Source: Candidatus Hydrothermarchaeum profundi
GTDB lineage: Archaea; Hydrothermarchaeota; Hydrothermarchaeia; Hydrothermarchaeales; Hydrothermarchaeaceae
Length of the DNA stretch: 64,000 bases
Reading direction: 5' to 3'
Assembly (NCBI GenBank): GCA_002011125.2
Contig: MTMF02000009.1
Coordinates: 898,989 to 962,988 of the forward strand
Of the stretch, positions 37,636-43,743 are shown one piece after another. How positions within the stretch are numbered: position 1 is the first letter of the stretch; each line of letters begins with the position of its first letter. The notes under the pieces are model-generated. The model was not told where the DNA came from. It ran no database searches and saw nothing but the letters and a program-made list of their open reading frames with translations. The position numbers and the translations under genes are program-made.

Positions 37636-40600
37636 ATGTCTATAATCAAAATAGCCGCAATATTAGTTATCCTTGCTTTGCTGTTATCGGCTGGAGATGC
37701 GTATGCAGCTCAGATTAATGAATCTACCGGTCCAGGAGGCTATGGCTGGCAGCAGGTATATGATGTCCCTCCAGGTGCCAAAACAACTGCGGTAACTGCT
37801 ACCAGAATAACAGGTTCTGCAGATAGGAAGTACTACGACTATGGATACAAAAAGATTCAGATCTCAGGGAGATATGAAAACTATTGGTCAACCGACTCTG
37901 GATGGTGGTATGTAAGTGGAACATCTCCAAACATCTATATAACAATATATGATAATGCTAGCAATGTTGTTGTTGGTCCTGATCTAGGCGTTTCTACTAC
38001 AAGAGGCTTGGGCACATACAATTATACGTGGGGATCAAGCTCTAACGAAACGCCTGGAGAGTGGACAGTACTAGTTAGAAACCAATCATCGCCAACGGGG
38101 TCTATAGTAGCTCAGTTCAAAATATTTGTGCGTGGGCAGTTGAATGTTACTGCGATATCAGTAAACTCCACATCTCCCAGAGTTGGAGATACATTGCTAA
38201 TCAATGCAACCCTTAAAGATCATACAAACGCTCTTGTAGGGAGCACCTCTCTTGGTTCTGGGCAGGTTACAGCGTATATTGTTGGGCCAGGAGAAAATTC
38301 TGAGGTTGCCCTTTCGGATGCAGATGATGATGGTTACTGGACCGGAGAGTTCACCCCAAATACCTATGGAGATTATATCATTGTCGTCAAAGCAACAGAT
38401 GGCCATAATAAGTGGATTGATGGCAGAGGAAGCCAGAAAATAGCAGTCACAGGTAGTTTTCCATCTTCATTTTTCGGGTCACTCTTTAGGGGAATAATAG
38501 GATTATTTATCGTTTTTTGGCTGTTGAGGAGTTCTACAAAAAAAAAGTTTAGTATCTTTTTTATTATAGCGTTGCTGATTCTCGTCGGAGGGGTAAGTGC
38601 TATAGATACCGGGAGATATAACATATCTAAGCCTAATTTAGAGATAGAAGGCTCTACTACTGCAAATCAACTTGACTCAACAGCGCGGGGATGCATCACT
38701 AGTGTAGATAATTCTTCATGCCATCTTAGGGACAATAATTTTGGTACAGGAGACTATCAACAAAGAGGGACAACAGATTTGAGTGGGGTAACTCATCCAG
38801 GTGCTAATAGAGATGTAGCAGGTTTTTTTCCAGACTGGGTGCATATGCATCATGGCGGTAGCAATTGGCCGCAGTGGTATTGGGATATAACAGGGACGAC
38901 CGGTAACGATGCTAGTGGACTGGCCAATATAACGTCTCCAAGGGTAAGTAGTTTGGCGAAAGGTAATGGCGATGCGCAGATAGGATCTGGCTTTGACGCG
39001 GCATTTAATAGAACGCATTATGATGCAGATAGAGACGCATATGAATCCTTGCCTTTTCTAGGTCAGCCCTACGATATTGGAGGAAATAATCCTCAAATGC
39101 CAAAAAGCTGTACGTATGGCGCACAACCAGCGTTGGGAGGTGTTGCAGAGCCTTTCCCCGATCAAGAATCTCTAGGATGTCACGGTACTAGAGAGTTAGG
39201 AGATACTCTAGCTAGAGATTACCCGAGAAGCGATAATGTGAACTGTACTGATTGTCATGGCTCTATAACCGTTCAAAGCACCAATACGAAGCATGGTAGT
39301 GTTGCAGGTGCAAATTGCACATCATGCCATAATGCATACTATAATAGTAGTGTTTCCAAATACCAGTTAGATGGTTCTACTAATATAACAGTATATTATT
39401 GTGCAAACTCGACTTGCCATCAATCTTCTGTAATTACTCCATTAAACACTTCATATCTACATGCTGGAAGAGACTGCCGCTATTGTCATGGTCATGGCCA
39501 TAATATAACAAGCACACCAAAAAGCACTCCCTCTCTGTGGTGGAATACTACCTGCGGGAGTCAAGACGATACGTGCCATGGTAGCGGGGCGCCTTCTCCG
39601 AGAAATGTAGGTGTAGTGCAACATAATGTGACAAACCCCTTCTCGTCACCGCCCAATTGTACCGATTGCCATTCTTATACTTCGTCTGCTCATAACGTAT
39701 CCTCTATACCAGCATGTAGCAAATGTCACAACACTACTTCTACTTGGGGAAAAGCAAGAGCAAATCAGAGTGTACCCAACTGGATAAGCTCACAGACAAA
39801 TAACATGACTCATGGCGACCTTGGTAGAGGAAATAGAAGCAATCTCTCCTGCAACTTCTGTCATAATGATACTAGCTATCATTTTCCTGGATATAGAAAT
39901 ACCAACTATGAGACACAGGGATGTAATAATACTTTATGTCATGGTAATGCAAGTAGTTCTCTCATGGCAAGCAATCTGACTCAGATAAACCGTAGTCATT
40001 CTAATCTAAATTGCAAAGCATGTCACAACAACCAGACTATTTATAGCGAGTCTAGTAATAAGACTTTGGGACCTATAACTATAGATACGAATATACATGC
40101 AAGTAATTCATCTTGGCTAATACCCTTCAATGTTACTACTAGAGGATATGTTACGAACACAACATGCCTGAACTGCCATAACAACAGAACCTATATAGAT
40201 CAAAGTCTAAATTGCACTGGGTGTCATGGGATAAATGGCAAGTTAAATGTCCATACAGATCTTAATGTTGAAGCAACTGTTGGAGACGGCATCCACAATA
40301 CTGGAGACTGTGGCGCATGCCACGCTGATCCATCAAGAGATATTTTCGTTAATTTTTCTGCGGTGAATGAGAGTGTTCATCGTAACTTGAATGTGAATGC
40401 CTCGAATTCTACGCCTTTGTCTTGGGGTAATGTTACTAAGGCGTGTTGGGCTTGTCATGGTAATGGCTCGCAGCCTAGTGGGCATCCGAGTAATTATAAG
40501 ACGCCTTGGAACTGTACTTATTGTCATACCCGTAATGCCTCTGGTCTGGGTAATTTTTCTGCTCCCTTGGTGTATGAGCATTTTGATAATGAGAGTACGC

Positions 40601-43600
40601 TGGTGAATATTGATATTAATGTCTCGGTTGGCTGTGTGGATTGTCATAATAATAGTGTTGTGGATGCTAATGACACCTTGTATAGGTCTATTGTTCAGAC
40701 TGGGAGGTCTAATGTCTCGCATTATGGTTCTAGTAGTGGTCTTTTGCCTGGTGGTCAGCCTTCTCGTAATTGTACGGCTTGTCATAGGAATCAGACTACC
40801 GCGAAGACTTGGGGGATCCGGGATAGGTATCCTTTCACTAATAATATCTTTGGTAATCGTACTATTAGGCATTCTGGGAATGAGACTAACTCTGATGATT
40901 CCACGTATTGTGTGAAGTGTCATAATACTTCTACGTCTTCTTCTGGCTTTTTTGACGGTAGCCCGGATGTGAGCTTGCTTGTTAATCTGCATTCTGAGCA
41001 GCTTTTTGGGGCTACGCCTCCGGGTAAGGTTGCTAGCGTGCACTTTTATTTTGACTGGGAGGGTGATGATTCTGCTGAGTATCCTCCTGGTAATGGTAGC
41101 GTGGAGAATAAGGCTTATGAGAGTTGTCCGGCTTGTCATAATAATACTGGTCTTACTGGTGAGGGTGCGGATGCTGCTAATGCGAAGGTTTGTGAGGATT
41201 GTCACGTGATTAATGAGTCTCTCGGTAAGCCTAATGGCCCTTATCCTGGCCCTGTTGGGCCTTCGGGTCCCTTGGTGAATAAGTTTGTGTTGAGGTCTGA
41301 TTATGATAATGCCTCTGTTCCTGTGGTGAAGGAGCATATTAACGCTACAGACTACTACACTGGAACCGAGATAAATGTCACTACTAATCTTTCTGAGATA
41401 TTTGGCAGTACCTTGAAGCGTTCTACTTCTTGTGTCGGCTATAATGCTACCTCTGGCGAGGGAAGCTGTCATGGCGTCTCATGGGAGTTTAGGGGTAGTG
41501 CTGGAAGCTTTTTCGCTTTTAATAGGAATAGGAGCGTGAATGAGTCTAATGCTACTTATCATTATCAGCTTATCGTTGACTATTTGCCTGACACCCGGAA
41601 CTGTACCTTCTGCCATCTTAGCACGGATGAGAACCTTAGAAAAGCCTGGGGAAACGCCACATATATACCAAATAGTACTGTTAGGGCTCACAATGAAACA
41701 AGTAATTCTCAGTGCTATGATTGTCATGCAGGTGGAACAGCTCCATATAATTTCCATACTACTTCAGTTAATCCTGGAATAGGTGGGGCAGACTGTGGAT
41801 CAGCAGGGTGCCATGCGGATTCTTCGAAAAATATCTGGGTTAATTTTTCTGCGGTGAATGAGAGTGTTCATCGTAACTTGAATGTGAATGCCTCGAATTC
41901 TACGCCTTTGTCTTGGGGTAATGTTACTAAGGCGTGTTGGGCTTGTCATGGTAATGGCTCGCAGCCTAGTGGGCATCCGAGTAATTATAAGACGCCTTGG
42001 AACTGTACTTATTGTCATACCCGTAATGCCTCTGGTCTGGGTAATTTTTCTGCTCCCTTGGTGTATGAGCATTTTGATAATGAGAGTACGCTGGTGAATA
42101 TTGATATTAATGTCTCGGTTGGCTGTGTGGATTGTCATAATAATAGTGTTGTGGATGCTAATGACACCTTGTATAGGTCTATTGTTCAGACTGGGAGGTC
42201 TAATGTCTCGCATTATGGTTCTAGTAGTGGTCTTTTGCCTGGTGGTCAGCCTTCTCGTAATTGTACGGCTTGTCATAGGAATCAGACTACCGCGAAGACT
42301 TGGGGGATCCGGGATAGGTATCCTTTCACTAATAATATCTTTGGTAATCGTACTATTAGGCATTCTGGGAATGAGACTAACTCTGATGATTCCACGTATT
42401 GTGTGAAGTGTCATAATACTTCTACGTCTTCTTCTGGCTTTTTTGACGGTAGCCCGGATGTGAGCTTGCTTGTTAATCTGCATTCTGAGCAGCTTTTTGG
42501 GGCTACGCCTCCGGGTAAGGTTGCTAGCGTGCACTTTTATTTTGACTGGGAGGGTGATGATTCTGCTGAGTATCCTCCTGGTAATGGTAGCGTGGAGAAT
42601 AAGGCTTATGAGAGTTGTCCGGCTTGTCATAATAATACTGGTCTTACTGGTGAGGGTGCGGATGCTGCTAATGCGAAGGTTTGTGAGGATTGTCACGTGA
42701 TTAATGAGTCTCTCGGTAAGCCTAATGGCCCTTATCCTGGCCCTGTTGGGCCTTCGGGTCCCTTGGTGAATAAGTTTGTGTTGAGGTCTGATTATGATAA
42801 TGCCTCTGTTCCTGTGGTGAAGGAGCATATTAACGCTACAGACTACTACACTGGAACCGAGATAAATGTCACTACTAATCTTTCTGAGATATTTGGCAGT
42901 ACCTTGAAGCGTTCTACTTCTTGTGTCGGCTATAATGCTACCTCTGGCGAGGGAAGCTGTCATGGCGTCTCATGGGAGTTTAGGGGTAGTGCTGGAAGCT
43001 TTTTCGCTTTTAATAGGAATAGGAGCGTGAATGAGTCTAATGCTACTTATCATTATCAGCTTATCGTTGACTATTTGCCTGACACCCGGAACTGTACCTT
43101 CTGCCATCTTAGCACGGATGAGAACCTTAGAAAAGCCTGGGGAAACGCCACATATATACCAAATAGTACTAAGCAGTCACATTCAACATCTCTAACTAAC
43201 ACAGAGTGTTATGGCTGTCATACCGAGGATAATCAAGCCCCATACAATTTCCATAGCGCTACACTAGCAACCACTAATTGTAGAGGATGTCATTTTAGTT
43301 GGACAACCATGAATAATACGAAGAACGCACCTACTAAATACGTCAATCAGACTCTTTTCAATACGAGCGTGCACGGTAATAGTTCTGTGATAGATTGTCA
43401 AGACTGTCATACAGGAAGCCATGGGACCTTTGAATCTGGTGGTGGTCCAGAAGAGTACACCTGGAAGTGGTGTGAATGTTGTCATACGGTTATGCCTACC
43501 TATGCAAATAAAACTCCAATAATTTCAACTGGGATAGGATTGAGACACAATTTGACGCGAAAGCCCCAATACCTCTATTATAATATATCAGGCACACTTC

Positions 43601-43743
43601 AAACTCCTCTAGAGATAACGACTTGTACGACTTGTCATGATTCGACGCTTTATAACAACGCTAAGGCTAATTTCAACCGTTCTGCCTCAAAGGATTGTAC
43701 CTACTGCCATCCTTTCCCAGATAAACTGCCAGGAGGGGACTAA
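37636..43743 (+). CDS. Second giant multiheme c-type cytochrome, 2035 aa, about 33 CxxCH; N-terminal 'GPGGYGWQQ' surface domain fused in the same ORF
   Basis: Signal peptide, NESTGPGGYGWQQ domain, internal TM (GIIGLFIVFWLL..FFIIALLILVGGVSA), then heme modules. Confidence 0.95.
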   Translation: MSIIKIAAILVILALLLSAGDAYAAQINESTGPGGYGWQQVYDVPPGAKTTAVTATRITGSADRKYYDYGYKKIQISGRYENYWSTDSGWWYVSGTSPNIYITIYDNASNVVVGPDLGVSTTRGLGTYNYTWGSSSNETPGEWTVLVRNQSSPTGSIVAQFKIFVRGQLNVTAISVNSTSPRVGDTLLINATLKDHTNALVGSTSLGSGQVTAYIVGPGENSEVALSDADDDGYWTGEFTPNTYGDYIIVVKATDGHNKWIDGRGSQKIAVTGSFPSSFFGSLFRGIIGLFIVFWLLRSSTKKKFSIFFIIALLILVGGVSAIDTGRYNISKPNLEIEGSTTANQLDSTARGCITSVDNSSCHLRDNNFGTGDYQQRGTTDLSGVTHPGANRDVAGFFPDWVHMHHGGSNWPQWYWDITGTTGNDASGLANITSPRVSSLAKGNGDAQIGSGFDAAFNRTHYDADRDAYESLPFLGQPYDIGGNNPQMPKSCTYGAQPALGGVAEPFPDQESLGCHGTRELGDTLARDYPRSDNVNCTDCHGSITVQSTNTKHGSVAGANCTSCHNAYYNSSVSKYQLDGSTNITVYYCANSTCHQSSVITPLNTSYLHAGRDCRYCHGHGHNITSTPKSTPSLWWNTTCGSQDDTCHGSGAPSPRNVGVVQHNVTNPFSSPPNCTDCHSYTSSAHNVSSIPACSKCHNTTSTWGKARANQSVPNWISSQTNNMTHGDLGRGNRSNLSCNFCHNDTSYHFPGYRNTNYETQGCNNTLCHGNASSSLMASNLTQINRSHSNLNCKACHNNQTIYSESSNKTLGPITIDTNIHASNSSWLIPFNVTTRGYVTNTTCLNCHNNRTYIDQSLNCTGCHGINGKLNVHTDLNVEATVGDGIHNTGDCGACHADPSRDIFVNFSAVNESVHRNLNVNASNSTPLSWGNVTKACWACHGNGSQPSGHPSNYKTPWNCTYCHTRNASGLGNFSAPLVYEHFDNESTLVNIDINVSVGCVDCHNNSVVDANDTLYRSIVQTGRSNVSHYGSSSGLLPGGQPSRNCTACHRNQTTAKTWGIRDRYPFTNNIFGNRTIRHSGNETNSDDSTYCVKCHNTSTSSSGFFDGSPDVSLLVNLHSEQLFGATPPGKVASVHFYFDWEGDDSAEYPPGNGSVENKAYESCPACHNNTGLTGEGADAANAKVCEDCHVINESLGKPNGPYPGPVGPSGPLVNKFVLRSDYDNASVPVVKEHINATDYYTGTEINVTTNLSEIFGSTLKRSTSCVGYNATSGEGSCHGVSWEFRGSAGSFFAFNRNRSVNESNATYHYQLIVDYLPDTRNCTFCHLSTDENLRKAWGNATYIPNSTVRAHNETSNSQCYDCHAGGTAPYNFHTTSVNPGIGGADCGSAGCHADSSKNIWVNFSAVNESVHRNLNVNASNSTPLSWGNVTKACWACHGNGSQPSGHPSNYKTPWNCTYCHTRNASGLGNFSAPLVYEHFDNESTLVNIDINVSVGCVDCHNNSVVDANDTLYRSIVQTGRSNVSHYGSSSGLLPGGQPSRNCTACHRNQTTAKTWGIRDRYPFTNNIFGNRTIRHSGNETNSDDSTYCVKCHNTSTSSSGFFDGSPDVSLLVNLHSEQLFGATPPGKVASVHFYFDWEGDDSAEYPPGNGSVENKAYESCPACHNNTGLTGEGADAANAKVCEDCHVINESLGKPNGPYPGPVGPSGPLVNKFVLRSDYDNASVPVVKEHINATDYYTGTEINVTTNLSEIFGSTLKRSTSCVGYNATSGEGSCHGVSWEFRGSAGSFFAFNRNRSVNESNATYHYQLIVDYLPDTRNCTFCHLSTDENLRKAWGNATYIPNSTKQSHSTSLTNTECYGCHTEDNQAPYNFHSATLATTNCRGCHFSWTTMNNTKNAPTKYVNQTLFNTSVHGNSSVIDCQDCHTGSHGTFESGGGPEEYTWKWCECCHTVMPTYANKTPIISTGIGLRHNLTRKPQYLYYNISGTLQTPLEITTCTTCHDSTLYNNAKANFNRSASKDCTYCHPFPDKLPGGD
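40348..41679 (+). repeat. 1332-bp direct repeat, copy 1
   Basis: Starts gttaatttttctgcggtgaatgag, ends ccaaatagtact; identical by eye to 41839..43170 at a constant 1491-bp (497-codon) offset. Confidence 0.93.
41839..43170 (+). repeat. 1332-bp direct repeat, copy 2
   Basis: See copy 1; 159-bp unique spacer between copies. Confidence 0.93.

Follow-up and report, generated by a model that had tools for sequence, protein, structure and literature searches.

A tract without A-ending codons in a giant archaeal cytochrome gene: strand-oriented third-position bias in repeats and a possible role for NucS

INTRODUCTION

Why do more than 300 consecutive codons of one cytochrome gene contain no codon ending in A, when the codons around them use A freely? 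The question was raised by a first-pass annotation of a 64-kb stretch of DNA (hereafter the window; C9:898,989-962,988, on the main contig, C9, of a 2.19-Mb archaeal assembly). Three causes were offered there: import of DNA from a replicon whose third positions are extremely biased, a strand-biased mutational process, and selection on mRNA or translation. Of these, the strand-biased process stood in a replication-strand-oriented form tied to repeats, and import and selection on translation did not.

RESULTS

The tract lies in an exact repeat

The codon count on which the question rests was reproduced. None of the 333 codons at 40348-41346 ends in A (T 207, G 93, C 33), and the in-frame run is larger than had been claimed, comprising 336 codons from 40339. 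A is normal at codon positions 1 and 2 (95/333 and 110/333), and the flanking codons and the other genes of the window use A-ending codons freely. With the protein sequence fixed and synonymous codons used as in the flanking giant genes, the chance of such a run was log10 P = -46.5; the longest run in any other ORF of the window is 24 codons. As the annotation had described, the 5' edge of the tract is sharp and coincides with the repeat boundary, and the pattern decays across the last ~300 bp of the block.

It had missed three things, of which the presence of comparable tracts elsewhere in the genome is taken up below. The tract had been taken as single, but it has two copies, since a block of 1,332 bp recurs at 100% identity (Table 1); the flanks of the two copies have diverged, while the copies themselves are identical. 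The loss had been assigned to A-ending codons only, but C-ending codons are depleted too (TGC 0/14 and TAC 0/12; among NNY codons, 14 C versus 105 T). With A absent and C depleted, the third positions are thus G/T. The tract holds 34 AAT codons, and Asn (AAT) is still common in the linkers. Since sense position 3 is without A, no antisense codon begins with T and no antisense stop arises, and the open frames over both copies on the opposite strand appear to be by-products.

The host gene belongs to a tandem cluster of giant multiheme cytochromes at 17473-43743 of the window (3,924, 2,250, 502, and 2,035 amino acids). A diversity-generating retroelement target was considered and rejected: the copies are identical, and there are no template and variable repeats differing at adenines.

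Table 1. Repeat copies and runs in the window, and further tracts elsewhere in the genome (near 1,028 kb and C9 coordinates)
Feature	Coordinates	Strand	Remark
Host ORF	37636..43743	+	2,035-aa multiheme cytochrome (Cytochrome_C7, MtrC/MtrF-like domains)
Repeat copy A	40348..41679	+	1,332 bp; DNA 100% identical to copy B
Run in copy A	40339..41346	+	336 codons, none A-ending; third positions G/T-rich
3' tail of copy A	41347..41679	+	Still identical to copy B; A-ending codons back (13/111), C up
Spacer between copies	41680..41838	+	159 bp; ordinary codon usage (A3 0.26)
Repeat copy B	41839..43170	+	1,332 bp
Run in copy B	41830..42837	+	Second run of 336 codons, none A-ending
Antisense open frame over copy A	40333..41472	-	379 aa; putative by-product
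Antisense open frame over copy B	41800..42963	-	387 aa; putative by-product
Five-heme cytochrome gene			Pattern search; present twice; A3 = 0 in 203 codons
Block common to two S-layer-like ORFs			Pattern search
Short repeat	near 1,028 kb		Pattern search
PAS-domain kinases			Pattern search
mtbC-mttB	C9:1885098-1887157	-	Pattern search; A3 1.5%

The bias follows the replication strand

The third-position keto skew has one minimum, at 494 kb, and one maximum, at 1.554 Mb, which gives two replichores; the minimum sits 11 kb from orc1/cdc6 (C9:482,683). All 13 G/T-ending loci lie in genes of the leading strand; codon share alone would give this with a chance of about 4e-4. The cytochrome repeat at C9:1632061-1632396, in a lagging-strand gene, has A/C-ending codons (fourfold A.60, C.33, G 0, T.07) and is the mirror image of the G/T-rich tracts. 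A/C-rich windows at 344-350 kb (n = 3) are also on the lagging strand. The A/C-rich window at 373.6 kb is opposite to expectation, and its identical copy at 1,010 kb fits the orientation.

Codon usage or import would not give a mirrored bias that follows the strand. The cause of the A-free tract is not codon choice; the phenomenon is real, strand-oriented, and mostly repeat-linked, and the tie of G/T enrichment to replication strand and repeats is well supported.

The A/C-ending windows in lagging-strand genes at C9:344529-350431 lie near an 85% local repeat and may mark a zone where the same process acted longer ago.

Exact local repeats are G/T-rich

Exact repeats were listed regardless of composition in 1.896 of the 1.918 Mb of the main contig (99%). 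The local coding repeat set, chosen by identity alone (exact, at least 87 bp, less than 2 kb apart), was small (n = 10), and exact pieces within repeats of only 87-90% identity were left out of it. In nine of the ten, G/T makes up 0.70-0.92 of third positions as read on the leading strand, compared with a mean of 0.53 (SD 0.05-0.10) in random coding segments; the homogenized tracts thus share a systematic base preference. The z scores were 2.9-6.7 for eight repeats and 2.1 for repeat 670123. Repeat 1591517 is weak and unexceptional (G/T 0.59), which counts against the explanation favored below. Silent G+C does not rise: GC3 is 0.28-0.50 in the local G/T-rich repeats, where C falls and T rises.

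Older repeats (85-93% identity) are mostly without G/T enrichment, and the difference classes of the older local repeats showed no significant excess (G/T versus A/C, 25 versus 18). Among the dispersed identical pairs, G/T richness is seen in the PAS domains that share one orientation relative to the fork and in neither of the two pairs with opposite orientations. An exception, which also counts against the favored explanation, is the TFB-like gene pair (C9:494316-495241 and C9:557711-558636): its members share 720 identical bp and have the same orientation, but they are not G/T-rich (0.40), and their third positions are GC-rich (GC3 0.63).

The first-pass annotation had named the presence of such tracts across the whole genome as evidence that would speak against its reading. 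About a dozen such loci do exist, mostly in repeats, which answers that description only in part. One of them, mtbC-mttB, is present in the assembly as a single copy, which counts against the favored explanation; its G/T tract suggests that a second copy once existed or was collapsed in assembly. The mttB gene contains an in-frame TAG, located where pyrrolysine is expected, which is read through and probably encodes pyrrolysine.

Two other features were observed on the contig. A G/T-rich repeat protein at C9:363851-364238 surrounds a 100-bp assembly gap with 55-bp repeats on either side, and CRISPR arrays with the 37-bp repeat GTTGCAGAAGTCGATCTAGTAAAACAAGGATTGAAAC lie at C9:770.7-771.7 kb and about C9:786-788 kb.

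The tracts are polar and low in purines

In the direction of the leading strand, G/T enrichment sets in abruptly at the repeat's 5' edge and has faded before its 3' edge is reached. The same polarity was found in the repeat at 1632061, whose gene runs the other way. A+C made up 30/261 in the leading-5' sixth and 97/261 in the 3' sixth (P = 7e-12). Polarity was less clean in the 1565947 array and at 1823905, where little polarity counts against the favored explanation.

Fourfold T/(T+G) was 0.67-0.77 in the tracts and 0.685 in leading-strand genes, as if the background had been restricted to G/T by removal of A and C. Fourfold purines drop from.48 in the background to about.29 in the tracts; transversions therefore took part, since pure deamination would not give this drop.

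Genomes with many G/T runs have NucS and lack MutS1

The genome studied here (G000) has a NucS/EndoMS gene, on contig C8, with a full-length match to NF003270 (254.7 bits; cut-off, 216). NucS equivalogs are present in it and in G008, with no MutS1 in either.

Among the genomes of this one small archaeal phylum (G000-G022), NucS and MutS1 are nearly mutually exclusive. G000, G008, G010, and G012 have NucS and lack MutS1, and 12 other genomes have MutS1 and no convincing NucS.

The density of G/T runs (NNK x 28 per Mb) was 87-108 in the four NucS genomes versus 0-27 in the 12 MutS genomes, without overlap; the exact P for this split, 5e-4, is before any phylogenetic correction, and the two groups belong to different families and are thus not independent points. 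Since NNK runs also catch low-complexity sequence, they were used only as a per-genome density. The unanchored NNB pattern was uninformative in GC-rich genomes.

In G008, four of the five coding-anchored loci, which were found through composition, are exact tandem repeats. G010 and G012 have few coding-anchored tracts, and this counts against the favored explanation. In G013, a MutS-containing genome, 777 kb of sequence contained a single local coding repeat family of any size (96.5% identical), with a G/T of 0.50, which is consistent with the split but weak. The giant cytochrome repeat of G013 (G013:C2:539710-540990 and 542515-543807; 96.5% identical) is low in A3 (0.09) but C-rich, and thus represents a different bias.

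EndoMS from Thermococcus cuts G:T, G:G, T:T, T:C, and A:G mismatches and spares C:C, A:C, and A:A (PMC7343888). NucS favors G/T mismatches and works with the sliding clamp (PMC8228993), and in M. smegmatis it acts as a barrier to homeologous recombination (PMC5290159). In a 2026 preprint, converted M. tuberculosis paralogs were biased T>C/A>G, and reduced NucS repair during recombination was suggested (PMC13061034). Since that bias differs, the G/T effect may not extend to actinobacteria. Our search of the open-access literature returned no description of the strand-oriented G/T phenomenon in repeats.

DISCUSSION

The explanation that we consider most likely, at about an even chance, is that gene conversion between the copies, going on over a long time and filtered by EndoMS/NucS, left the tract as its footprint. 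That NucS is the agent we infer with a little less confidence, slightly short of even. The general form is more tentative again: in NucS archaea without MutS, blindness to A:C, A:A, and C:C could turn recombination between repeats into a one-way ratchet toward G/T silent sites on the leading strand.

Under this explanation, two near-identical cytochrome-module copies would convert repeatedly, and leading-sense G or T would almost always replace A or C. Since purifying selection keeps the protein, the effect would saturate at silent positions. A lagging-sense 3' end of one copy (an Okazaki fragment or gap end) would pair with the other copy inside the 3' tail, be extended on it, and then re-anneal to its own leading-sense template. 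Each difference would give a mismatch between the recipient base and the complement of the donor base. Changes of A to G (A:C), A to T (A:A), C to T (C:A), and C to G (C:C) would all be spared by EndoMS/NucS, and the reverse changes of G/T to A/C would give G:T, T:T, T:G, or G:G, which would all be cut and rejected. Since only the former would be spared, the ratchet would run one way and on the leading-sense strand only. The sharp 5' edge would come from trimming of the nonhomologous 3' end, and the ordinary 3' tail from the homology that initiation requires. That the lagging-sense strand initiates conversion is suggested by the bias and the polarity; the derivation from mismatch to ratchet is our own, and it presumes that the NucS of G000 shares the specificity of the Thermococcus enzyme. 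Residual C in the tracts (~10%) runs against a simple ratchet model, which predicts near zero; the leftover C perhaps reflects codon selection.

Two alternatives keep the link to repeats and the leading strand but place the bias elsewhere. In one, which we regard as unlikely, the bias is mutational: a repeat-linked, single-stranded lagging-strand template would be deaminated (C to T, A to G) toward G/T, and conversion would only keep the copies identical. The direction and strand are those of the known replication asymmetry, and the mild genome-wide skew has the same sign. However, transitions keep the purine/pyrimidine content, yet fourfold purines fell as described above; the abundance of AAT codons in the tract indicates that A at positions 1 and 2 is not visibly eroded; and single-copy neighbors on the same strand are normal. 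In the other, somewhat less likely again, leading-strand conversion would be biased not by a mismatch nuclease but by RadA, a strand-exchange protein belonging to a family that favors GT-rich DNA. A preference of RecA and Rad51 for GT-rich pairing sequences is established (in references cited in PMC3763553), and the orientation and the link to repeats fit. A one-base difference should barely alter pairing, yet A is near-absolutely excluded (0/333 codons), and neither the NucS/MutS split nor the constancy of the T:G ratio follows from RadA.

The remaining explanations are far less probable. Selection on translation or mRNA, against codons that U34 tRNAs read, would suit mtbC-mttB, which is biased and probably highly expressed, but we consider it very improbable: the bias begins and ends inside one ORF, and such selection fails to predict that the repeat in a lagging-strand gene is dominated by A/C-ending codons. 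Import of DNA is a shade more improbable still. It would account for the abrupt 5' edge, and no close relatives were found in the collections searched, with matches of only 31-48% among 60 relatives. However, the orientation of the G/T-rich tracts is that of the local leading strand and reverses between replichores, and the mirrored A/C-ending tract in a lagging-strand gene contradicts import. The small cytochrome is a conserved gene of the phylum whose orthologs throughout have normal usage; since orthologs of MttB do as well, the bias does not belong to the genes themselves. No donor with the same bias was found in the plasmid, viral, and species-genome collections (plasmids, viral_contigs, and genome_contigs). 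An assembly artefact, to which we give the same very small weight as import, is raised by the metagenome-type assembly with its 100-bp gaps flanked by 55-bp repeats; but assemblers create no synonymous, strand-oriented bias in open frames, and the pattern recurs at many loci and in another genome, G008. Neither horizontal gene transfer nor translational selection is supported.

If NucS-filtered conversion is the true explanation, a single repair enzyme, through its substrate specificity, marks the genome in an oriented and readable way. The leading-strand G/T ratchet would be a strand-oriented form of biased gene conversion that could serve as a genomic signature of repair type, and it would reveal the strand that starts recombination between repeats. 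A near-total loss of one base from silent sites would be explained without codon selection or horizontal transfer, codon-usage tests for horizontal transfer could misfire in repeats, and heteroduplex rejection by NucS in vivo would become testable from sequence alone.

The tracts resemble several known systems in part. As in GC-biased gene conversion, a base-dependent winner in conversion between homologous copies would reshape silent sites, but here the bias is toward G/T over A/C on one replication strand and is therefore strand-asymmetric, whereas GC-biased conversion favors G/C over A/T. As in the concerted evolution of tandem repeats, local copies are identical and their flanks diverged; the homogenized tracts here differ in their saturated, oriented composition and polar gradient. 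The chromosomal leading-strand G/T skew has the same sign and strand, but the tracts are saturated (A near 0) and mostly confined to repeats, compared with.54 versus.48 in ordinary genes. Diversity-generating retroelements also lose A from one strand and leave the 3' end unmodified; in contrast, the copies here are identical and protein-conserving, C is also lost, and the orientation follows replication and not the gene. In noncanonical mismatch repair by EndoMS/NucS, we found no account in the open-access literature of a directional force on sequence composition, but its role against homeologous recombination is known in M. smegmatis, and its mismatch specificity predicts exactly the base changes allowed in the tracts.
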